A DNA stretch of 52,156 nucleotides from Syntrophomonas sp. (lineage in GTDB: Bacteria > Bacillota > Syntrophomonadia > Syntrophomonadales > Syntrophomonadaceae): positions 1 to 52,156 of the forward strand of contig JAENZE010000017.1 in the NCBI GenBank assembly GCA_016841425.1. The letters are read 5' to 3'. Positions 1,189 through 8,675 of this stretch are shown here, piece by piece (position 1 is the first letter of the stretch; each line of letters opens with the position of its first letter). Position numbers and translations under genes: made by a program. Under the pieces are notes generated by a model. It worked only from the letters and a program-made list of their open reading frames with translations, had not been told where the DNA came from and ran no database searches.

Positions 1189-1608
1189 TCACCTCCGGTT
1201 AATGGAAGCTATACCAATGTAATATATACAGCTTATAAATGGTAAATAAACTAGAAGATAGTAGTATAGAGGTTTATCGAAATAATAATTTATTCCGGCC
1301 AGGGATAACAGCCCCAGCAGGGGAGTAAACCAGAACTGCAGCATGAAGATAGCATATTCATAGAGCCCCAGAAAGTTAAAAGAGCTTATACAGAGAACAG
1401 CAAAAAAAAGGCTGGGAGCCTGCCAGATTGACGCAGTTACAATTTTTTGGATCAATGGAAGTTCATAAGCTCTACGGGCCTCCAGGGCAATAACCACCAG
1501 ATAGATGATAGCAACCATGATATCCAGCCCTGGAAAGTAACTGCTTAAAATGCCTGCTGCAAAAGCACTAAGGTGAATAAAATATAATCTAACTGCATTT
1601 ACCAGCAT
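1189..1608 (-). CDS. Small integral membrane protein, unknown function
   Basis: A 139-residue, strongly hydrophobic protein with about four predicted membrane segments, roughly residues 8-28, 30-45, 62-82 and 85-130 (the last probably two helices). No family motif was recognised. Its ATG at 1608 directly abuts the TAA stop of the permuted NlpC/P60-like gene (1609-2235), so the two are almost certainly translationally coupled. It may anchor or assist that secreted enzyme, but this is inferred only from the coupling. Confidence 0.7.
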   Translation of the reverse strand: MLVNAVRLYFIHLSAFAAGILSSYFPGLDIMVAIIYLVVIALEARRAYELPLIQKIVTASIWQAPSLFFAVLCISSFNFLGLYEYAIFMLQFWFTPLLGLLSLAGINYYFDKPLYYYLLVYLPFISCIYYIGIASINRR

Positions 1609-2235
1609 TTAAATACCTTTCTCTCGAATAATACTAACATGGGAACTATCGCAGAAAGTGTCCGGGGAAATCCACAAATCCTCACTTTCATCCAATTCGA
1701 TTCCTTGTTCATTATACGCTTTCCATATGACCTTACTGCAATTCCAGATCCTATCCCCGGGCTTAAAAGCCAGGGCAAAAAACATTTTGCCCTGAAAACT
1801 GCGGGCATACTCGACTGCTTGCTTCTTGACTTCTGGATCAGCTTCTACTCGGAGCAGACAGACCTCCTTATAATCCCGAAAATGATCGATGGGACGGATA
1901 TGCACTCCATAATCTGCAAAAGCTTCTATGACTTGACCATTACCGCTGTACATGGCCACGTGAGAAAAGCGGCCATAGGCACAATCAGGATATCCTCCCA
2001 GTATGATATCACCTGCTTCCAGCCCGGCAAAAGAAATGTCATTTGCATATTTCATAGTATTCCCGTAGCCAAAATTACCCCTGGCTGCACTATCGATATA
2101 AGCATACATAACCGCTTCCTGGTTTTCGAAAACGGGCCGGTTGCTGCTCACCAGCAGGGCAGAAAATAGCAGGACCAGCAATGGGAATAGCAGCAGTCCA
2201 AATTTATTCCGCCCTCTTTTCGGTTTGGTGTTCAT
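1609..2235 (-). CDS. YiiX-type permuted papain-like cysteine peptidase/amidase
   Basis: A 208-residue protein with an N-terminal membrane anchor or signal segment (residues 12-29) followed by a permuted NlpC/P60-like domain. The order is typical of the YiiX/YaeF group: the GDIIL strand and the FSHVAMY histidine (about residue 91) come first, and the catalytic Cys in WNCSKVIWKAY (about residue 166) comes late. Relatives act on amide bonds in lipids or peptidoglycan. The active site should lie outside the membrane. ATG at 2235 has a GGGAG site 8 nt upstream. It is coupled to the membrane protein gene at 1189-1608. The substrate cannot be told from the sequence. Confidence 0.75.
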   Translation of the reverse strand: MNTKPKRGRNKFGLLLFPLLVLLFSALLVSSNRPVFENQEAVMYAYIDSAARGNFGYGNTMKYANDISFAGLEAGDIILGGYPDCAYGRFSHVAMYSGNGQVIEAFADYGVHIRPIDHFRDYKEVCLLRVEADPEVKKQAVEYARSFQGKMFFALAFKPGDRIWNCSKVIWKAYNEQGIELDESEDLWISPDTFCDSSHVSIIREKGI

Positions 2236-2357: not shown

Positions 2358-3056
2358 ATGAGAAGTATACTTAGAAAACTGGATAAAAGGGAAATCTTAT
2401 CTGAGCTGGAATATAAAGAGCTCTTGGATTATATTGATGCTCTTATAAATAGTTCGTTAGAATCTTATGATTTATTTTATACTAGATATTCTGCAGTCTT
2501 ATGGCGGAATTATTCAGTATATATCCCCCGTTTTAAATATGATATAGATGATCTGATCAATCACCTGCTTTATCATCCTGAGCTGTTTGGCATAATTGAT
2601 AAAACACCAGATCTATTCGAGCTATTCCCGGTGGAATTGCATCCTTATATAGCTTATAATCTCAGGCGAGAAAATAACTATCATCTCTTTACCCGGCTAA
2701 TCCAATCTCTAACCGGATTTGCTTCGACCCCGCATGAATTGCCCGCAGCCAGGTCGGGAGATGTAGTAATTAAATACGAAGATGGCAATCCTTATAAGGA
2801 AATCGGGTTAAAATCACATTTTGACAGATTAGCCAAATATCAGTTCATTACCCGTGTGCAGTCATACCGCTACCTGACACGGAGCAAGGCCAGCCAGGAC
2901 AAAATAGATGTTCTTGCTGACGACAGACTGGGAGGTATCTATACTAATAAAGAGAAATCTATTTACTATTATCTATTCTTGAACGAAAGAGATATTATTA
3001 AAGCTGAGAATGCCTGTTCAGTTCTGAATATAGCACTATATGGAAAATCCACCTAA
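2358..3056 (+). CDS. Unknown protein, first gene of the Hsp70-like operon
   Basis: A 232-residue protein with no recognised domain. It is rich in Leu, Ile, Tyr and Arg, has no signal peptide or membrane segment, and looks mainly helical in its first 120 residues. The ribosome-binding site is weak (GGTAAG), so translation may be low or the start uncertain. It is followed after 11 nt by a TTG-started gene and heads a four-gene run ending in an Hsp70/actin-fold ATPase. The tight spacing implies a shared function, possibly as a client-binding or adaptor subunit, but nothing in the sequence proves this. Confidence 0.7.
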   Translation: MRSILRKLDKREILSELEYKELLDYIDALINSSLESYDLFYTRYSAVLWRNYSVYIPRFKYDIDDLINHLLYHPELFGIIDKTPDLFELFPVELHPYIAYNLRRENNYHLFTRLIQSLTGFASTPHELPAARSGDVVIKYEDGNPYKEIGLKSHFDRLAKYQFITRVQSYRYLTRSKASQDKIDVLADDRLGGIYTNKEKSIYYYLFLNERDIIKAENACSVLNIALYGKST

Positions 3057-3067
3057 GGAGAATACAA

Positions 3068-4540
3068 TTGCCAAGTATAGTACTCGAATTAGATAATGAA
3101 CTTAATAATAATGACCTGTTTTTAATGTGGCAGAATGAATTAAGCTTGAGAACATCTGCACGAGCAGATACGCATGATGCTAATACCATATCTATATCTG
3201 GAACCCAGGAATTAGAATTCTGGTATCGATGCTGGTATTTCTCGGACCACAAATTAGATTTTTTCAACCTGCTGCTGGGCAATCTCCACAATATACAAGT
3301 ACTTAAATGGCTGGGGGATGGGCCAGTATTTTTGCTGCAGGACTTCTGGTCTTTTCTTCCCTGGCATATTGCCTTCAGACAGCCTGATCCAGAAAAGCTG
3401 CAGTTTATAGTTAATCTATATAACTCAGAATATCATCTATCGATGATGCAGGTGGTAAATTCGCTTAATCTTGAATCCTGCCAATATCTTTTATCCAGGA
3501 CAGCCAATCAGGAGCTGCGTAAGCTTTTTAAAGAACGGGAGTCTGAACTATTAAGAAATAACAAACAAACCCTTTATGGGTTTATAAAAACTCAAAAAAA
3601 TGAATTTCCTGGCCTCTATGGGGATAAAATCAACAATATATTACAAACCCTGGTTTTATTGAAGGAGAGTAGTATTCACAATTTCCATGACCCCAATGGT
3701 GCCGAACGTTTCACCAAACTGTTAGCAGCGGCGGAAGGTGTTTTCCAAAGCGGATTGGTTGAAGACTGCCTGGGAGTACTGATTGAACTTTATGAGGATT
3801 ATCAAAGAAAAAATAGACTGGTGAGCCTGCTGGAAGATGAGAAAATCCATCGAACCTTCTATCGCCTGCTGCGCCAGGTAATTCCAGTTTACGCTTTATT
3901 AAACCAGCCTTTATCCCCATATGAATTGGCTGATCGAATTTACACCAAGCATTTTGCTCTTATTAATCCTGATCCAGCCAGCCTGCAGTATCTAGCTGTA
4001 TACGAAAGCATTATCACGGCTTTTAATAAGCAAAAGCCCAGTATTTTGTATGAAATATATATGAAGAGCAGTATCCTTAATAAGTATAGACCTTTTGACA
4101 ATTACCTGATCGAATCAGGGGAACTGAATAATGGCGTTGCTCCCCAACGGTTAACGGGATTTATGGAGATTATTAACCAAAGAATATCTGCTCTGCCGCA
4201 CGAATCTTTTATACTAATCGAATATCTTCGTATGCTGAGTATAATGAAGCTCATTACCTTTAATGACCAGATTGCCGGTGAGCTTCTCGATCATTATGTC
4301 AACCTGTGGCACTGGCTGCCCTGTACCCTGTTTATGAATGAGACGATATACTCACAGCTGGCTCCTCTGGCTGGAGAAGCAAACCGCAGCCAGGCACGTG
4401 CCATATGTGATGTGGTAATGGATAATAACCATGATAAGCTGGCAGAAGATATCTCATCCCGGCCTGATTTATTCAGGATGAAAGATGCATGGTTAAAACG
4501 GCAGATATTTGCTGCACATTTCCTGGGGGTATTCAAATGA
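3068..4540 (+). CDS. Unknown helical protein, second gene of the Hsp70-like operon
   Basis: A 490-residue soluble protein of unrecognised family. It is Leu-rich with regularly spaced amphipathic helices over most of its length, suggesting an alpha-solenoid (TPR- or HEAT-like) scaffold, though no repeat consensus is clear. The N-terminal part is Trp/Phe-rich, for example the FWYRCWYF stretch near residue 52. The start is TTG at 3068, chosen because AAGGAG lies 7-8 nt upstream and no better ATG exists. Its stop overlaps the next gene's start (ATGA at 4537-4540), so the two are translationally coupled. Confidence 0.75.
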   Translation: MPSIVLELDNELNNNDLFLMWQNELSLRTSARADTHDANTISISGTQELEFWYRCWYFSDHKLDFFNLLLGNLHNIQVLKWLGDGPVFLLQDFWSFLPWHIAFRQPDPEKLQFIVNLYNSEYHLSMMQVVNSLNLESCQYLLSRTANQELRKLFKERESELLRNNKQTLYGFIKTQKNEFPGLYGDKINNILQTLVLLKESSIHNFHDPNGAERFTKLLAAAEGVFQSGLVEDCLGVLIELYEDYQRKNRLVSLLEDEKIHRTFYRLLRQVIPVYALLNQPLSPYELADRIYTKHFALINPDPASLQYLAVYESIITAFNKQKPSILYEIYMKSSILNKYRPFDNYLIESGELNNGVAPQRLTGFMEIINQRISALPHESFILIEYLRMLSIMKLITFNDQIAGELLDHYVNLWHWLPCTLFMNETIYSQLAPLAGEANRSQARAICDVVMDNNHDKLAEDISSRPDLFRMKDAWLKRQIFAAHFLGVFK

Positions 4541-6114
4541 ATGTTAATGATTTAAACCTGGATTCCTACAGCAGCAATATGGAAGACTTCCTCCTCCGGC
4601 TGCGCCGTGAGGCAGAAGAAATCAGCCAGCAGTTTGAAAGCGGTATTAGTTCCGCTGAGAATTTAGACCGTTATCTGCTGGAGGTTAACTCATTCTATTA
4701 TCGCAGCTTTCATGAAACCTTCTGGCCGATTTACAAAAAGGATATAAGAGACGATATTAATCAACTGCTGGATCTAAAAGTACAGGAAGACCTGCTAAAA
4801 AAGCATATTGCTGCTATAATAAAACGCCATGCTAATTTATTCAACCAGGTAAAAAACACTTCCACCCGGCTGCAGCAGTTAAAGCTTCATATTATGGATC
4901 AAAGAACGTCCTTCAGCGATGAAAGAGATCGTCAGGTGCTGGAGCTGATTTATGGTTTTAATGAGATCAGGGCTAAACTCTGGGCACTGGAAGAATTTAT
5001 CGGCAGTCTTGATGAGATTTCATCTGGGCTGACGGTTCTTAATGGGCAGTCCGGTTCACAAATGCTGATTATGGGTGCCCAATCATTATGTTATTCCGAT
5101 TTGGAAGATCCGATGATATACAATTCTTATTATCGATTAATCAAACAGCAGGGATATATCTTCGATCTTATACAGAAATGTGCCTCAGACAACAACATCA
5201 TGCCGGAACGTATTTCTAAAATTCGCAGCCTGCTGGTAAACAGCAGTATAGAACTACCGGCAGATTTTTGTAGTTTCTATGAAGTTCAGATTCAATCGAC
5301 TTCTCTGCGTTTTGCTGAACTTATGCTGCTAAACTTACAAGTTCAGGACCATCAGAGGCTGCAAGAAATAATACTGGAGTTCTTAGAATTCTTCACTGTC
5401 TGGCTGTCGTTTCTAAATCTAATAATGTCTTATATCTCCAAACCTGGTTTTAAATTGATACCAGAGTTGTGCAGGTTGAATCTTAAACATCCAGGTTACC
5501 TGAAAGAGTTACATTATGATGTGTCCTCCACTCGCAAGAACGTTGAAGAAGTTGGCAAAGATATGGATGACACTAAAAATATTGATTTTCTATATTTAAG
5601 CACTCAGATAAAAAATATTCTGGAGTTTTCTGCTCCGCTCTATAAAACCATGGCTCATGAGAGCCCGGTAAGTGAAATATCCCTTTTGACAGCTCGCATC
5701 CAGCAAATCAGCCTTGCTTTTTCCGTTCTGGACAGCAGAATAAGAATCCTAGCAGAAGAACATATGCATACAGCCAGTATTATAAGTCATAGTGACGATC
5801 TTTTAACCTGGCTGAATTCAGAATTAGAGCTGTTAAGCAATATTAAGAATGATCTGGAAAGACTCCTGGCCCCCCGCAATATAGCCAGAGTGTGGAAGGA
5901 TCTGGATATTCGAGTAACCCATATACCCTTGACCAGAGGGAAGACTCTGCCAGATGAATATCTCTACCTGCTGGATAAATACCACATCAATACTCGTATT
6001 ACCGAGCAGATGGACCATACCGTTCTCCATGAAGAAGGCGATATTTTTATCATCCGGGTAGAAGATGAAAGCAGCGAAGAGATACCTTACATGATTATTG
6101 GAAAGAAAGGTTAG
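4537..6114 (+). CDS. Unknown coiled-coil-rich protein, third gene of the Hsp70-like operon
   Basis: A 525-residue protein of unrecognised family. Long charged helices, for example residues 20-130 and 400-460, suggest coiled coil. The C-terminal 70 residues are shorter, acidic and more beta-like, ending in EEIPYMIIGKKG. No signal peptide or membrane segment is seen. The frame is open 16 codons further upstream, but the ATG at 4537 overlaps the previous stop as ATGA and gives the natural coupled start. The following Hsp70-like gene begins 5 nt after its stop. It could be a partner or regulator of that ATPase. Confidence 0.75.
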   Translation: MNVNDLNLDSYSSNMEDFLLRLRREAEEISQQFESGISSAENLDRYLLEVNSFYYRSFHETFWPIYKKDIRDDINQLLDLKVQEDLLKKHIAAIIKRHANLFNQVKNTSTRLQQLKLHIMDQRTSFSDERDRQVLELIYGFNEIRAKLWALEEFIGSLDEISSGLTVLNGQSGSQMLIMGAQSLCYSDLEDPMIYNSYYRLIKQQGYIFDLIQKCASDNNIMPERISKIRSLLVNSSIELPADFCSFYEVQIQSTSLRFAELMLLNLQVQDHQRLQEIILEFLEFFTVWLSFLNLIMSYISKPGFKLIPELCRLNLKHPGYLKELHYDVSSTRKNVEEVGKDMDDTKNIDFLYLSTQIKNILEFSAPLYKTMAHESPVSEISLLTARIQQISLAFSVLDSRIRILAEEHMHTASIISHSDDLLTWLNSELELLSNIKNDLERLLAPRNIARVWKDLDIRVTHIPLTRGKTLPDEYLYLLDKYHINTRITEQMDHTVLHEEGDIFIIRVEDESSEEIPYMIIGKKG

Positions 6115-6119
6115 CTTAG

Positions 6120-7829
6120 ATGTACCTGGGTATAGATATTGGAACATCATATACCAAGATCGCCGGTCTGTTAGAAGGAAATTGGGTGGATATCAACCCG
6201 CAGAAACGAGTTATTCCAACCGTAGCAGTTTATTTGCCATCAACCGGCCAGCTTTACTTTGGGAAACTAGCCCTGCGCCTTGATGAACCCGGTTCTGAAA
6301 AAGCTTTCTTTTTTAAACTGGATTTGAAACGAAATATCAAATTCCAATTAGGGCCATATAAGGTAGAGGAAGTGGTAAGAGGATTCTTATCTTATTTATA
6401 TACCGAATATTTAGAAGGGAAGGCTCCCCCTATCAAAACTCTAGCTCTGTCGGTGCCGAATTACTTTGGACTTAAATCCAGACAAATACTGCTTGACGCG
6501 GCCAGGGAGGTCTTTAGACTTAACGAGATTTACCTGGTACCAGAACCTCTAGCTGCACTGATCGCTTATAACACCCTTAATGAATATCAGCCGTTAGAAG
6601 GTACGGTCCTGAGCATAGATGTGGGAGGAGGAACTACCGACTTTAGTTTTTTGGATGCGATCGGCGATCGGCAGGAATTAATTTTGGAAGCCCAATTCCA
6701 GATTGGATATGATGCTTTTTCCGGTTCAGAACTCGACCATGCCGTAATAAGAAATATTTTCATACCCCTTTACCAAATGCAAACCGGGAACGGTATACCC
6801 GAACAATATGTTACCGGTAAATTACTACTGCCACAAGAGCGTCAGCTTTATAACTCCTGGCTGGTAGAAGCAGAAAAATTCAAACTGGAGATAAGCAGCA
6901 ACGGATCCGCTGCCTTGTATCTAGGCGATTTTTATAAAGGCGGTTCAATTTCATCCTATATTGATCAGGGTATGTTTCTCGCTTACCTGGAGACAGTATA
7001 TGGGAAACTCCAGGTATACTGTCAGACCCTGTTAAGAGATCGAGCCGCCCTATTGGGTCTGGCTGATGGTAATTCCTGGCATATAGACTGCATCCTTCTT
7101 CAAGGAGGAGGTGCACTGGCCCCAGGAGTTAAGCAGATCATTTCCGAGTGTTTTCCTGACCTGCCAGTGATTTTATGCAATTCTATGGATTTGGTAGCGA
7201 GGGGATTATGCTATTGGATCAACCATTATATTAACAAACATAACAGCCTTAAGACCATATACCCCTTTGATTTCTATCGGGAAATATATGATAAGACAGA
7301 AGACCAGATATTGCTCGAAAGAATTCCATTTGATACCGCTAATCTGGAACTGGACATATTGGGCAAATACAAAATACTATCCTTTTCTCCCCTGTCCTAT
7401 ACCGATCCCAACCCTGAAAGTGAAAGATCTTTAAAGATATATGAGGTAGCACAGGGTGAAGCCATGACTACTCAGGAACGTTTTATGGGGATGGACCCAG
7501 TTCTTGACGTTAAATGGCCTGCAGGTGAACTTCCTGCCTATATTAATATATATTTGAATTTGAATCTGTGCAGGTTGGAAACAGACGTTGAAACAATGGT
7601 CTCACCATCCGCAGATAATAATCAATCCATTTTTCGCAATTTATTATCTGAGCAGTTGGAAGCTCTTAAGCTGCTAGAAAATTATAAATATGTTAATTCT
7701 GATCTTATTAATGATTTTTCTGATTATCTTAAAGAGCATAAGCAGTATGCCCATTCTCCTTATGATGATTATGCTCAAACCGTGCGCTATAAGCTTTTAT
7801 GTATGCTGCAGATTCTTGATAGCAAATAG
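6120..7829 (+). CDS. Hsp70/actin-fold ATPase, non-DnaK type
   Basis: A 569-residue protein of the Hsp70/actin/sugar-kinase ATPase superfamily. The phosphate-1 loop is GIDIGTSYTKIA (residues 4-15). The connect-1 region is LSVPNYF followed by LVPEPLAALIAY, phosphate-2 is SIDVGGGTTDFSF (about 166-178), and the adenosine motif is LLQGGGALAPG (about 328-338). The ATPase domain fills about residues 1-370. The remaining 200 residues do not show a clear DnaK substrate-binding domain or EEVD-like tail, so this is not housekeeping DnaK. No DnaJ or GrpE gene is nearby. The three genes upstream in the same tight operon are its likely partners. Confidence 0.85.
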   Translation: MYLGIDIGTSYTKIAGLLEGNWVDINPQKRVIPTVAVYLPSTGQLYFGKLALRLDEPGSEKAFFFKLDLKRNIKFQLGPYKVEEVVRGFLSYLYTEYLEGKAPPIKTLALSVPNYFGLKSRQILLDAAREVFRLNEIYLVPEPLAALIAYNTLNEYQPLEGTVLSIDVGGGTTDFSFLDAIGDRQELILEAQFQIGYDAFSGSELDHAVIRNIFIPLYQMQTGNGIPEQYVTGKLLLPQERQLYNSWLVEAEKFKLEISSNGSAALYLGDFYKGGSISSYIDQGMFLAYLETVYGKLQVYCQTLLRDRAALLGLADGNSWHIDCILLQGGGALAPGVKQIISECFPDLPVILCNSMDLVARGLCYWINHYINKHNSLKTIYPFDFYREIYDKTEDQILLERIPFDTANLELDILGKYKILSFSPLSYTDPNPESERSLKIYEVAQGEAMTTQERFMGMDPVLDVKWPAGELPAYINIYLNLNLCRLETDVETMVSPSADNNQSIFRNLLSEQLEALKLLENYKYVNSDLINDFSDYLKEHKQYAHSPYDDYAQTVRYKLLCMLQILDSK

Positions 7830-7871: not shown

Positions 7872-8675
7872 ATGATTAACACTTTTGCTGTTCACCCGGC
7901 TGCATCGAAATCCTTGATCGCCCGGGCAGTATGCGAACTGCCGGAGGTGAAAGCCGCCTATAAAAACGGACGCATTTTTATAGGCCATGGAACCACCAAC
8001 CTGGCCATTGCCGTTCATCTGCTGAACCTAAAAATAGACAATCCCAGCTCGTATGTATCAGGAGTAATTACCCAGCAGGCTGCCTGCGCCACCGACAGTC
8101 AATTACGCTGTGCCCCCTGGTGTATCGAAAAAGGTCGTGTATTAGAAGTGGATTGGCTGGAATTTCTAAACTCTTTTACAGACGGCGATATATTCATTAA
8201 AGGTGCTAATGCCATAGACCCTTATGGTAATGCTGGAATTTTACTGGGCGACCCCCAGGGGGGAACTATCGGAAAGTCCATCGGCATCTTGAAGGCCCGG
8301 GGTATACAGATTATTATTCCAGCCGGCCTGGAAAAAATGATCCCCTCCTGTCAGGCAGCAGAGAAGGTAATGGGAATTGAAAAAACCGCTCAATTAGTAG
8401 GCATGAAAACCGGATATATATGTCTCTCGGGTGCCACCATAATCACTGAAATTGAGAGCCTTAAAATACTGCTGGATGTTGAAGCGGTGCAAGTGGCGGC
8501 CGGAGGAGTGGGAGGTATGGAAGGTTCAGTAGTGCTGGCAGCCAAATACAAAAACGATGAAACCGCCTTCAAACTTCTTCAGATGGTTAAAGGGGCTAAT
8601 CGCACTCCTCGCCTTAAGATTAATAAAAAGAAATGCAACAGCTGCGATCATCCTTGTTATTTTATCGAAGAATAG
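7872..8675 (+). CDS. Conserved protein of unknown function with C-terminal Cys motif
   Basis: A 267-residue cytosolic protein that was not matched to a named family. Glycine-rich turns (GHGTTNLAIAV near residue 38, KGANAIDPYGNAG near 115, AAGGVGGMEGS near 210) suggest an alpha/beta nucleotide- or CoA-binding fold, perhaps of the NagB/CoA-transferase-like class. The C-terminus carries CNSCDHPC, a possible metal or Fe-S ligand set. An AAGGAGG site precedes the ATG. It lies 42 nt after the Hsp70-like gene and could be co-transcribed with it or start a new unit with the cupin gene. Confidence 0.65.
   Translation: MINTFAVHPAASKSLIARAVCELPEVKAAYKNGRIFIGHGTTNLAIAVHLLNLKIDNPSSYVSGVITQQAACATDSQLRCAPWCIEKGRVLEVDWLEFLNSFTDGDIFIKGANAIDPYGNAGILLGDPQGGTIGKSIGILKARGIQIIIPAGLEKMIPSCQAAEKVMGIEKTAQLVGMKTGYICLSGATIITEIESLKILLDVEAVQVAAGGVGGMEGSVVLAAKYKNDETAFKLLQMVKGANRTPRLKINKKKCNSCDHPCYFIEE

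Follow-up and report, generated by a model that had tools for sequence, protein, structure and literature searches.

The stretch of DNA examined here (hereafter the window, 52,156 nucleotides) is contig JAENZE010000017.1 of Syntrophomonas sp. assembly GCA_016841425.1 and represents an entire contig of this 3.58-Mb genome. Near its start lie four genes on the forward strand, here called p1 to p4; the first three encode proteins of no recognized family, and the fourth encodes a diverged Hsp70 whose ATPase half has decayed repeatedly among its orthologues. The open reading frames (ORFs) and their parts are as follows, with NBD standing for nucleotide-binding domain and SBD for substrate-binding domain.

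2358..3056, forward strand: p1 (232 aa), ORF; helical N-terminal part and C-terminal beta-sheet part; without a family match
3068..4540, forward strand: p2 (490 aa), ORF; TTG start with GGAG just upstream; without a family match
4537..6114, forward strand: p3 (525 aa), ORF; very long helix, helical bundle and small C-terminal beta domain
5902..6111, forward strand: C-terminal beta domain of p3 (about residues 456-525); conserved more strongly than the rest of the protein, with a weak GrpE-like signal
6120..7829, forward strand: p4 (569 aa), diverged Hsp70 by Pfam, PDB profile, HHalign and structural alignment
6120..7208, forward strand: NBD of p4 (residues 1-363); phosphate and adenosine motifs all intact
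7209..7589, forward strand: linker and predicted SBD-beta-like sandwich of p4 (about residues 364-490); signature IYPFxFYxE...IPFDTxNLELD
7590..7826, forward strand: C-terminal helical, lid-like part of p4 (about residues 491-569); the sole part remaining at two related loci, L171 and L172

On recount, the ORF positions, the lengths of p1–p3 and the intergenic spacings of 11, -4 and 5 nt were exactly as given in an earlier reading made from the letters alone (the sequence-only reading), and the ATG of p3 sits within the ATGA overlap of p2 and p3. That reading had named, in advance, scattering of the four genes in related genomes as an outcome that would count against it; they were found together, in the order p1-p2-p3-p4, at 31 examined loci. 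The other outcome it had named, matches of p1–p3 to known families with an explained role, did not arise either. Because this order is shared by 31 loci, and because the ratio of nonsynonymous to synonymous substitution rates (dN/dS) of each operon gene is about 0.1–0.35 in near pairs, the operon is more than a chance arrangement. Further, in family f3 the neighbouring genes (germination receptor genes and a rhomboid gene) differ from those in family f1, yet the four genes are still together, and therefore the linkage belongs to the operon itself.

Among the 63 genomes of the order, profile matches were obtained for p1 in 48, p2 in 50 and p3 in 49, although many relatives are metagenome-assembled genomes (MAGs) and these counts are affected by contig ends and frameshifts. 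All three genes are absent from 12 of the 63, and the single absences that we inspected coincide with contig ends. The genes co-occur in two of the three families of this order, to which Syntrophomonas belongs; about 380 genomes of the phylum outside this order yielded no p1. When 84,980 species were scanned with the p1 alignment, the query that worked (a scan of genome contigs with a single p4 sequence gave no matches), 42 loci were returned. Nearly all of these carry the label Syntrophomonas or Syntrophomonadaceae, the others being Gelria, Firmicutes or Bacillota MAGs, and the named isolates represented are S. wolfei subsp. methylbutyratica, S. palmitatica and S. zehnderi. No operon match was obtained in viral contigs, phages or plasmids.

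The sequence-only reading recognized no family for p1–p3, and searches of Pfam, NCBIfam, PADLOC, PHROG and PDB sequences likewise returned nothing convincing. A PADLOC match of p3 to JetC/MukB (16 bits) was judged to be chance coiled-coil similarity, and profile comparison among p1, p2, p3 and p4 revealed no mutual similarity. Hydropathy indicated no convincing membrane segment in any of the four (top 19-residue mean 1.84). The description of the partners as three helical proteins needs amending for p1, the best conserved of them (mean column identity 51%), whose predicted fold (pLDDT 88.6) has N-terminal helices followed by four strands and a closing helix. The p1 model had no Foldseek match in the PDB below E 0.28, and its best VIA match had Z 5.0, under the trust level; this result applies to the families listed there. 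Protein p2 is probably helical. For p3, the model of its orthologue at locus L047 contains a 123-residue helix and a helical bundle, followed by a small C-terminal beta domain. The suggestion that the system may be undescribed also stands as far as we searched: a keyword search of the open-licence literature found no paper on the four genes, and S. wolfei proteome papers, looked up by a guessed locus-tag range, held nothing on them.

Residues 3–363 of p4 constitute an Hsp70 NBD (Pfam HSP70, 2.2e-12; PDB profile, 2.5e-25), and HHalign relates p4 to the DnaKs of the phylum at 99.6%. As had been noted from the sequence, GIDIGTSYTK, DVGGGTTDFS and GGGALAPG are present, and the nucleotide motifs of an actin-like NBD (phosphate 1 and 2, connect, adenosine) are all in place. 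The protein nevertheless falls far under the NCBIfam equivalog cut-offs for HscA (51 of 708 bits), DnaK (43 of 823) and PRK11678 (YegD; 43 of 331). For the structure of p4 we used an AlphaFold2 model of the L047 orthologue, which is about 40% identical to the window p4; at L047, p4 lies in frame after p3, and the p3 stop was read as glycine and both proteins folded as one read-through chain (mean pLDDT 86). Past the NBD, this model has nine strands (model residues 904–1016) and then three helices (1030–1085). Its p4 part superposes on Sse1 over 430 residues at 3.6 Å and on ATP-bound DnaK over 443 residues at 4.3 Å (Z 33–34), and the Hsp70 alignments extend to model residue 1017 (p4 residue about 490), that is, through SBD-beta. 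The earlier impression that p4 has no clear DnaK substrate-binding domain is thus contradicted by the model. The C-terminal helices are lid-like by position only, as the structural alignments mostly end before them. A signature peculiar to the p4 family, IYPFxFYxE from residue 381 and IPFDTxNLELD from residue 403, falls at the linker and the first predicted SBD strands. Taken together, p4 is a diverged Hsp70, not an actin, with an NBD followed by a predicted SBD-beta and a short lid-like helical part. Sse1 is an exchange factor for Hsp70, and Hsp110/Sse1 is among the best full-length superpositions of the p4 model by root-mean-square deviation, but there is no sign of an Sse1-type exchange activity for p4.

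Consistent with the earlier remark that no DnaJ or GrpE gene lies nearby, Pfam matched neither in the window p1–p3 nor in those flanking proteins that were scanned, and p1–p3 had no J-domain match; the grpE of the host genome is located on another contig. Two other DnaK-type genes of the host occur, one in a GrpE-DnaK-DnaJ row (L074:4304-8060, G000:C25) and one at L073:5022-7942 (G000:C22), where the gene after DnaK encodes a protein that has an HPD motif close to its N-terminus. A second Hsp70-type protein, distinct from p4 and of about 500 aa (Pfam 7e-144), was seen in chemosensory operons of other genomes (L089-L092; G012, G057, G014, G055). For example, at L091:984-10035 it lies between a ParA-like ATPase and a methyl-accepting chemotaxis protein, with CheA and a triple CheW also present. 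The p4 matches in the window's genome do not include it.

In the orthologue alignment, p4 is intact in the window, S. wolfei, S. palmitatica and the f3 outgroup, and elsewhere its ATPase half is degraded to different degrees. The p4 at L056:8039-9727 (reverse strand) keeps subdomain IIB, but its phosphate-2 motif has become DIGEAA and FFKLxLKR has become GFKPALWR; the sister of this transitional form lacks IIB. In L058-L061 a segment of about 95 residues, equivalent to IIB, is gone, whereas L062-L065, L067, L069 and L070 lack IIB together with the phosphate motifs and part of lobe I, and lobe I is missing from L066, L071 and L176. The full set of Hsp70 nucleotide motifs is not present in the degenerate orthologues L059-L071. 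At the extreme, L171 and L172 (genus group g2, the same as that of the S. zehnderi genome) have only a 78-aa ORF, 2–3 nt after p3. These two remnants are 62% identical to each other, one of them matches the extreme C-terminus of S. zehnderi p4 (BLASTP 1e-5), and the pair matches the p4 profile (HHalign P 4e-4). Throughout the repeated decay of the NBD the YPF/PFDTxNLELD core was retained, and p1–p3 remain in all lineages with a degenerate p4.

On a quick tree of p1+p2+p3, rooted on f3, parsimony requires four changes between intact and degenerate p4, at least three of them forced by well-supported branches. Since the f3 outgroup is intact, these changes are most simply read as losses. For pairs with unsaturated dS, the dN/dS of the N-terminal part of p4 is 0.18–0.33 in the short forms compared with 0.10–0.24 in the intact ones. 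By these rates the short forms are clearly under purifying selection, if with somewhat relaxed constraint, and they do not look like pseudogenes. The ATPase half of p4 is dispensable in evolution, a feature that the sequence-only reading did not notice.

We consider the chances about even that p1–p4 make up an order-specific machine in which p4 is a private Hsp70 subunit or a dedicated assembly factor, docked through its C-terminal part and with an optional ATP cycle. In such a system, the four proteins would be the subunits of one cytoplasmic machine, or a complex and its dedicated assembly factor, and p4 would be an Hsp70 that has turned private to it. The SBD-beta and lid of p4 might dock on one of p1–p3, or on a segment that they present, in the way that the rudimentary SBD of Ssz1 grips the N-terminus of Zuo1 in the ribosome-associated complex of eukaryotes. 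Ancestrally and in most present forms, including that of the window, the NBD would bind and probably hydrolyse ATP and thereby regulate docking, while several lineages would have abandoned this regulation and kept p4 as a nucleotide-free structural subunit, at the extreme as little beyond the lid. More specifically, we give somewhat less than an even chance to an undescribed multiprotein machine of syntrophic fatty-acid oxidisers in which an Hsp70 was domesticated as a structural subunit and then dismantled stepwise, in parallel lineages, down to its lid.

Although Ssz1 binds ATP, it does not hydrolyse it, and its SBD is occupied by Zuo1 as a pseudo-substrate (PMC7083937). The proposed likeness to p4 lies in an Hsp70 acting as a fixed subunit, with the SBD as docking site and the ATPase cycle unneeded (PMC7083937), and the p4 model aligns with Ssz1 structures. 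However, Ssz1 is eukaryotic, has a J-protein partner in Zuo1, and lost its lid while the NBD was kept, whereas in p4 the NBD was lost and the C-terminal end kept, and no J-protein is found.

Several points weigh against a docked Hsp70 with an optional cycle. Gene linkage need not mean a complex, and we infer the contact of p4 with its partners, the docking by its C-terminal half and the role of the complex. HHalign detected no similarity between the C-terminal half of p4 and the SBD of DnaK; the SBD is thus not visible to profile comparison, and its assignment rests on the model of a single orthologue. As for the lid-only stage, the first remnant is tied to p4 at 1e-5, and the second by its likeness to the remnant of the first MAG only. 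Finally, conservation in intact lineages is higher for the NBD (49%) than for the C-terminal half (42%), and therefore ATP binding clearly matters in them.

The main rival is a dedicated, active client chaperone: p4 would fold or assemble one of p1–p3 in an ATP-driven manner, and its degenerate forms would be binding-only holdases for the same client. In its favour are NBD motifs left intact in the window p4 and most of its relatives, the stronger constraint on the NBD than on the C-terminal half in intact lineages and the presence of a predicted SBD-like half, and specialized bacterial Hsp70s such as HscA and HscC do serve few clients (PMC8215388). We nevertheless regard it as rather unlikely, because the operon has no J-domain protein, whereas DnaK, HscA and HscC work with J-proteins (PMC8215388), and because repeated loss of the ATPase with the client retained would be odd for a true folding cycle. 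Compared with these three bacterial Hsp70 types (PMC8215388), p4 has the NBD motifs and a predicted SBD-beta and lid in the same order, but it differs in its own linker/SBD signature, the lack of an adjoining J-protein, the three orphan partner genes and the repeated ATPase loss.

Alternatively, p3, with its long paired helix, its bundle and the beta domain at its C-terminus, might be a GrpE-like nucleotide exchange factor for p4. The order of its parts and the beta-alpha-beta-beta-beta-beta run at its C-terminus resemble the topology of GrpE, and the best local HHalign match to GrpE falls on the beta domain, with a score of 18.9, above the highest of 200 column shuffles (18.5). However, the HHalign probability is just 1–9%, GrpE is absent among the listed Pfam matches of p3 members (25 of 73 weak families are listed), PF01025 is not matched by the window p3 at E values up to 1, and the host genome already has its own GrpE. 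Moreover, the beta domain is 36–44% conserved where p4 has lost IIB, the GrpE-binding lobe, compared with 37% in the intact outgroup, which would not be expected of an exchange factor that binds IIB. With the beta domain equally conserved without IIB, HHalign below 10% and no Pfam match, the GrpE-likeness is therefore a lead only, and an exchange factor seems improbable; p3 is also about 2.5 times longer than GrpE, its sequence similarity is not significant, and it persists when the IIB of p4 is gone.

Of the private chaperone or actin-like machine that the sequence-only reading proposed, the dedicated Hsp70-type protein is borne out, but a filament-forming or switch ATPase (MreB/FtsA/ParM-like) with p2 and p3 as scaffold adaptors is very improbable: MreB is matched by 21 of 35 p4 members (best 1.3e-11) and FtsA weakly by 12, but the window protein reaches 18.5 of 27 bits for MreB, under the cut-off, while it exceeds the Hsp70 cut-off, an SBD-beta-like half and lid are predicted, and nucleotide-driven polymerisation fits poorly with sister lineages that have lost IIB and the ATP site.

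These results suggest an Hsp70 system in which the motor is expendable and the partners are three orphan proteins, known in the collections searched only from this order. If this holds, an Hsp70 can lose its motor in evolution and still keep its binding end, and p4 would represent a further, lineage-private type of bacterial Hsp70 with an expendable ATPase, beyond the three ATP-cycling, J-protein-dependent types. The series from intact to lid-only forms would then amount to a natural deletion experiment on what a non-cycling Hsp70 contributes. The order comprises fatty-acid-oxidising syntrophs, including the model syntroph Syntrophomonas wolfei, and it gains a conserved, unexplained gene set that is directly testable.

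In f1, conserved genes flank the operon on both sides: upstream those for NlpC/P60-C92 and small membrane proteins, downstream those for MerR, an acyl-CoA dehydrogenase and a transporter. These neighbours hint at the envelope or at fatty-acid metabolism, but f3 does not share them. A role in polyhydroxyalkanoate granules was considered and rejected, since PhaC occurs without the operon in G016, G034 and G021, and the operon without PhaC in G002, G004, G012 and G055. Spo0A is near universal and hence uninformative for operon function. The genes next to the operon in the window are:

1189-1608, reverse strand: small hydrophobic protein; beside the operon in f1, not f3
1609-2235, reverse strand: divergent NlpC/P60-C92-type protein with an N-terminal hydrophobic segment; beside the operon in f1, not f3
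7872..8675, forward strand: p5 (267 aa), 42 nt behind the operon; cysteine-rich C-terminus; no Pfam match above the cut-off

The last of these, p5, is probably not a core member of the operon, and follows it in about half of the f1 relatives.

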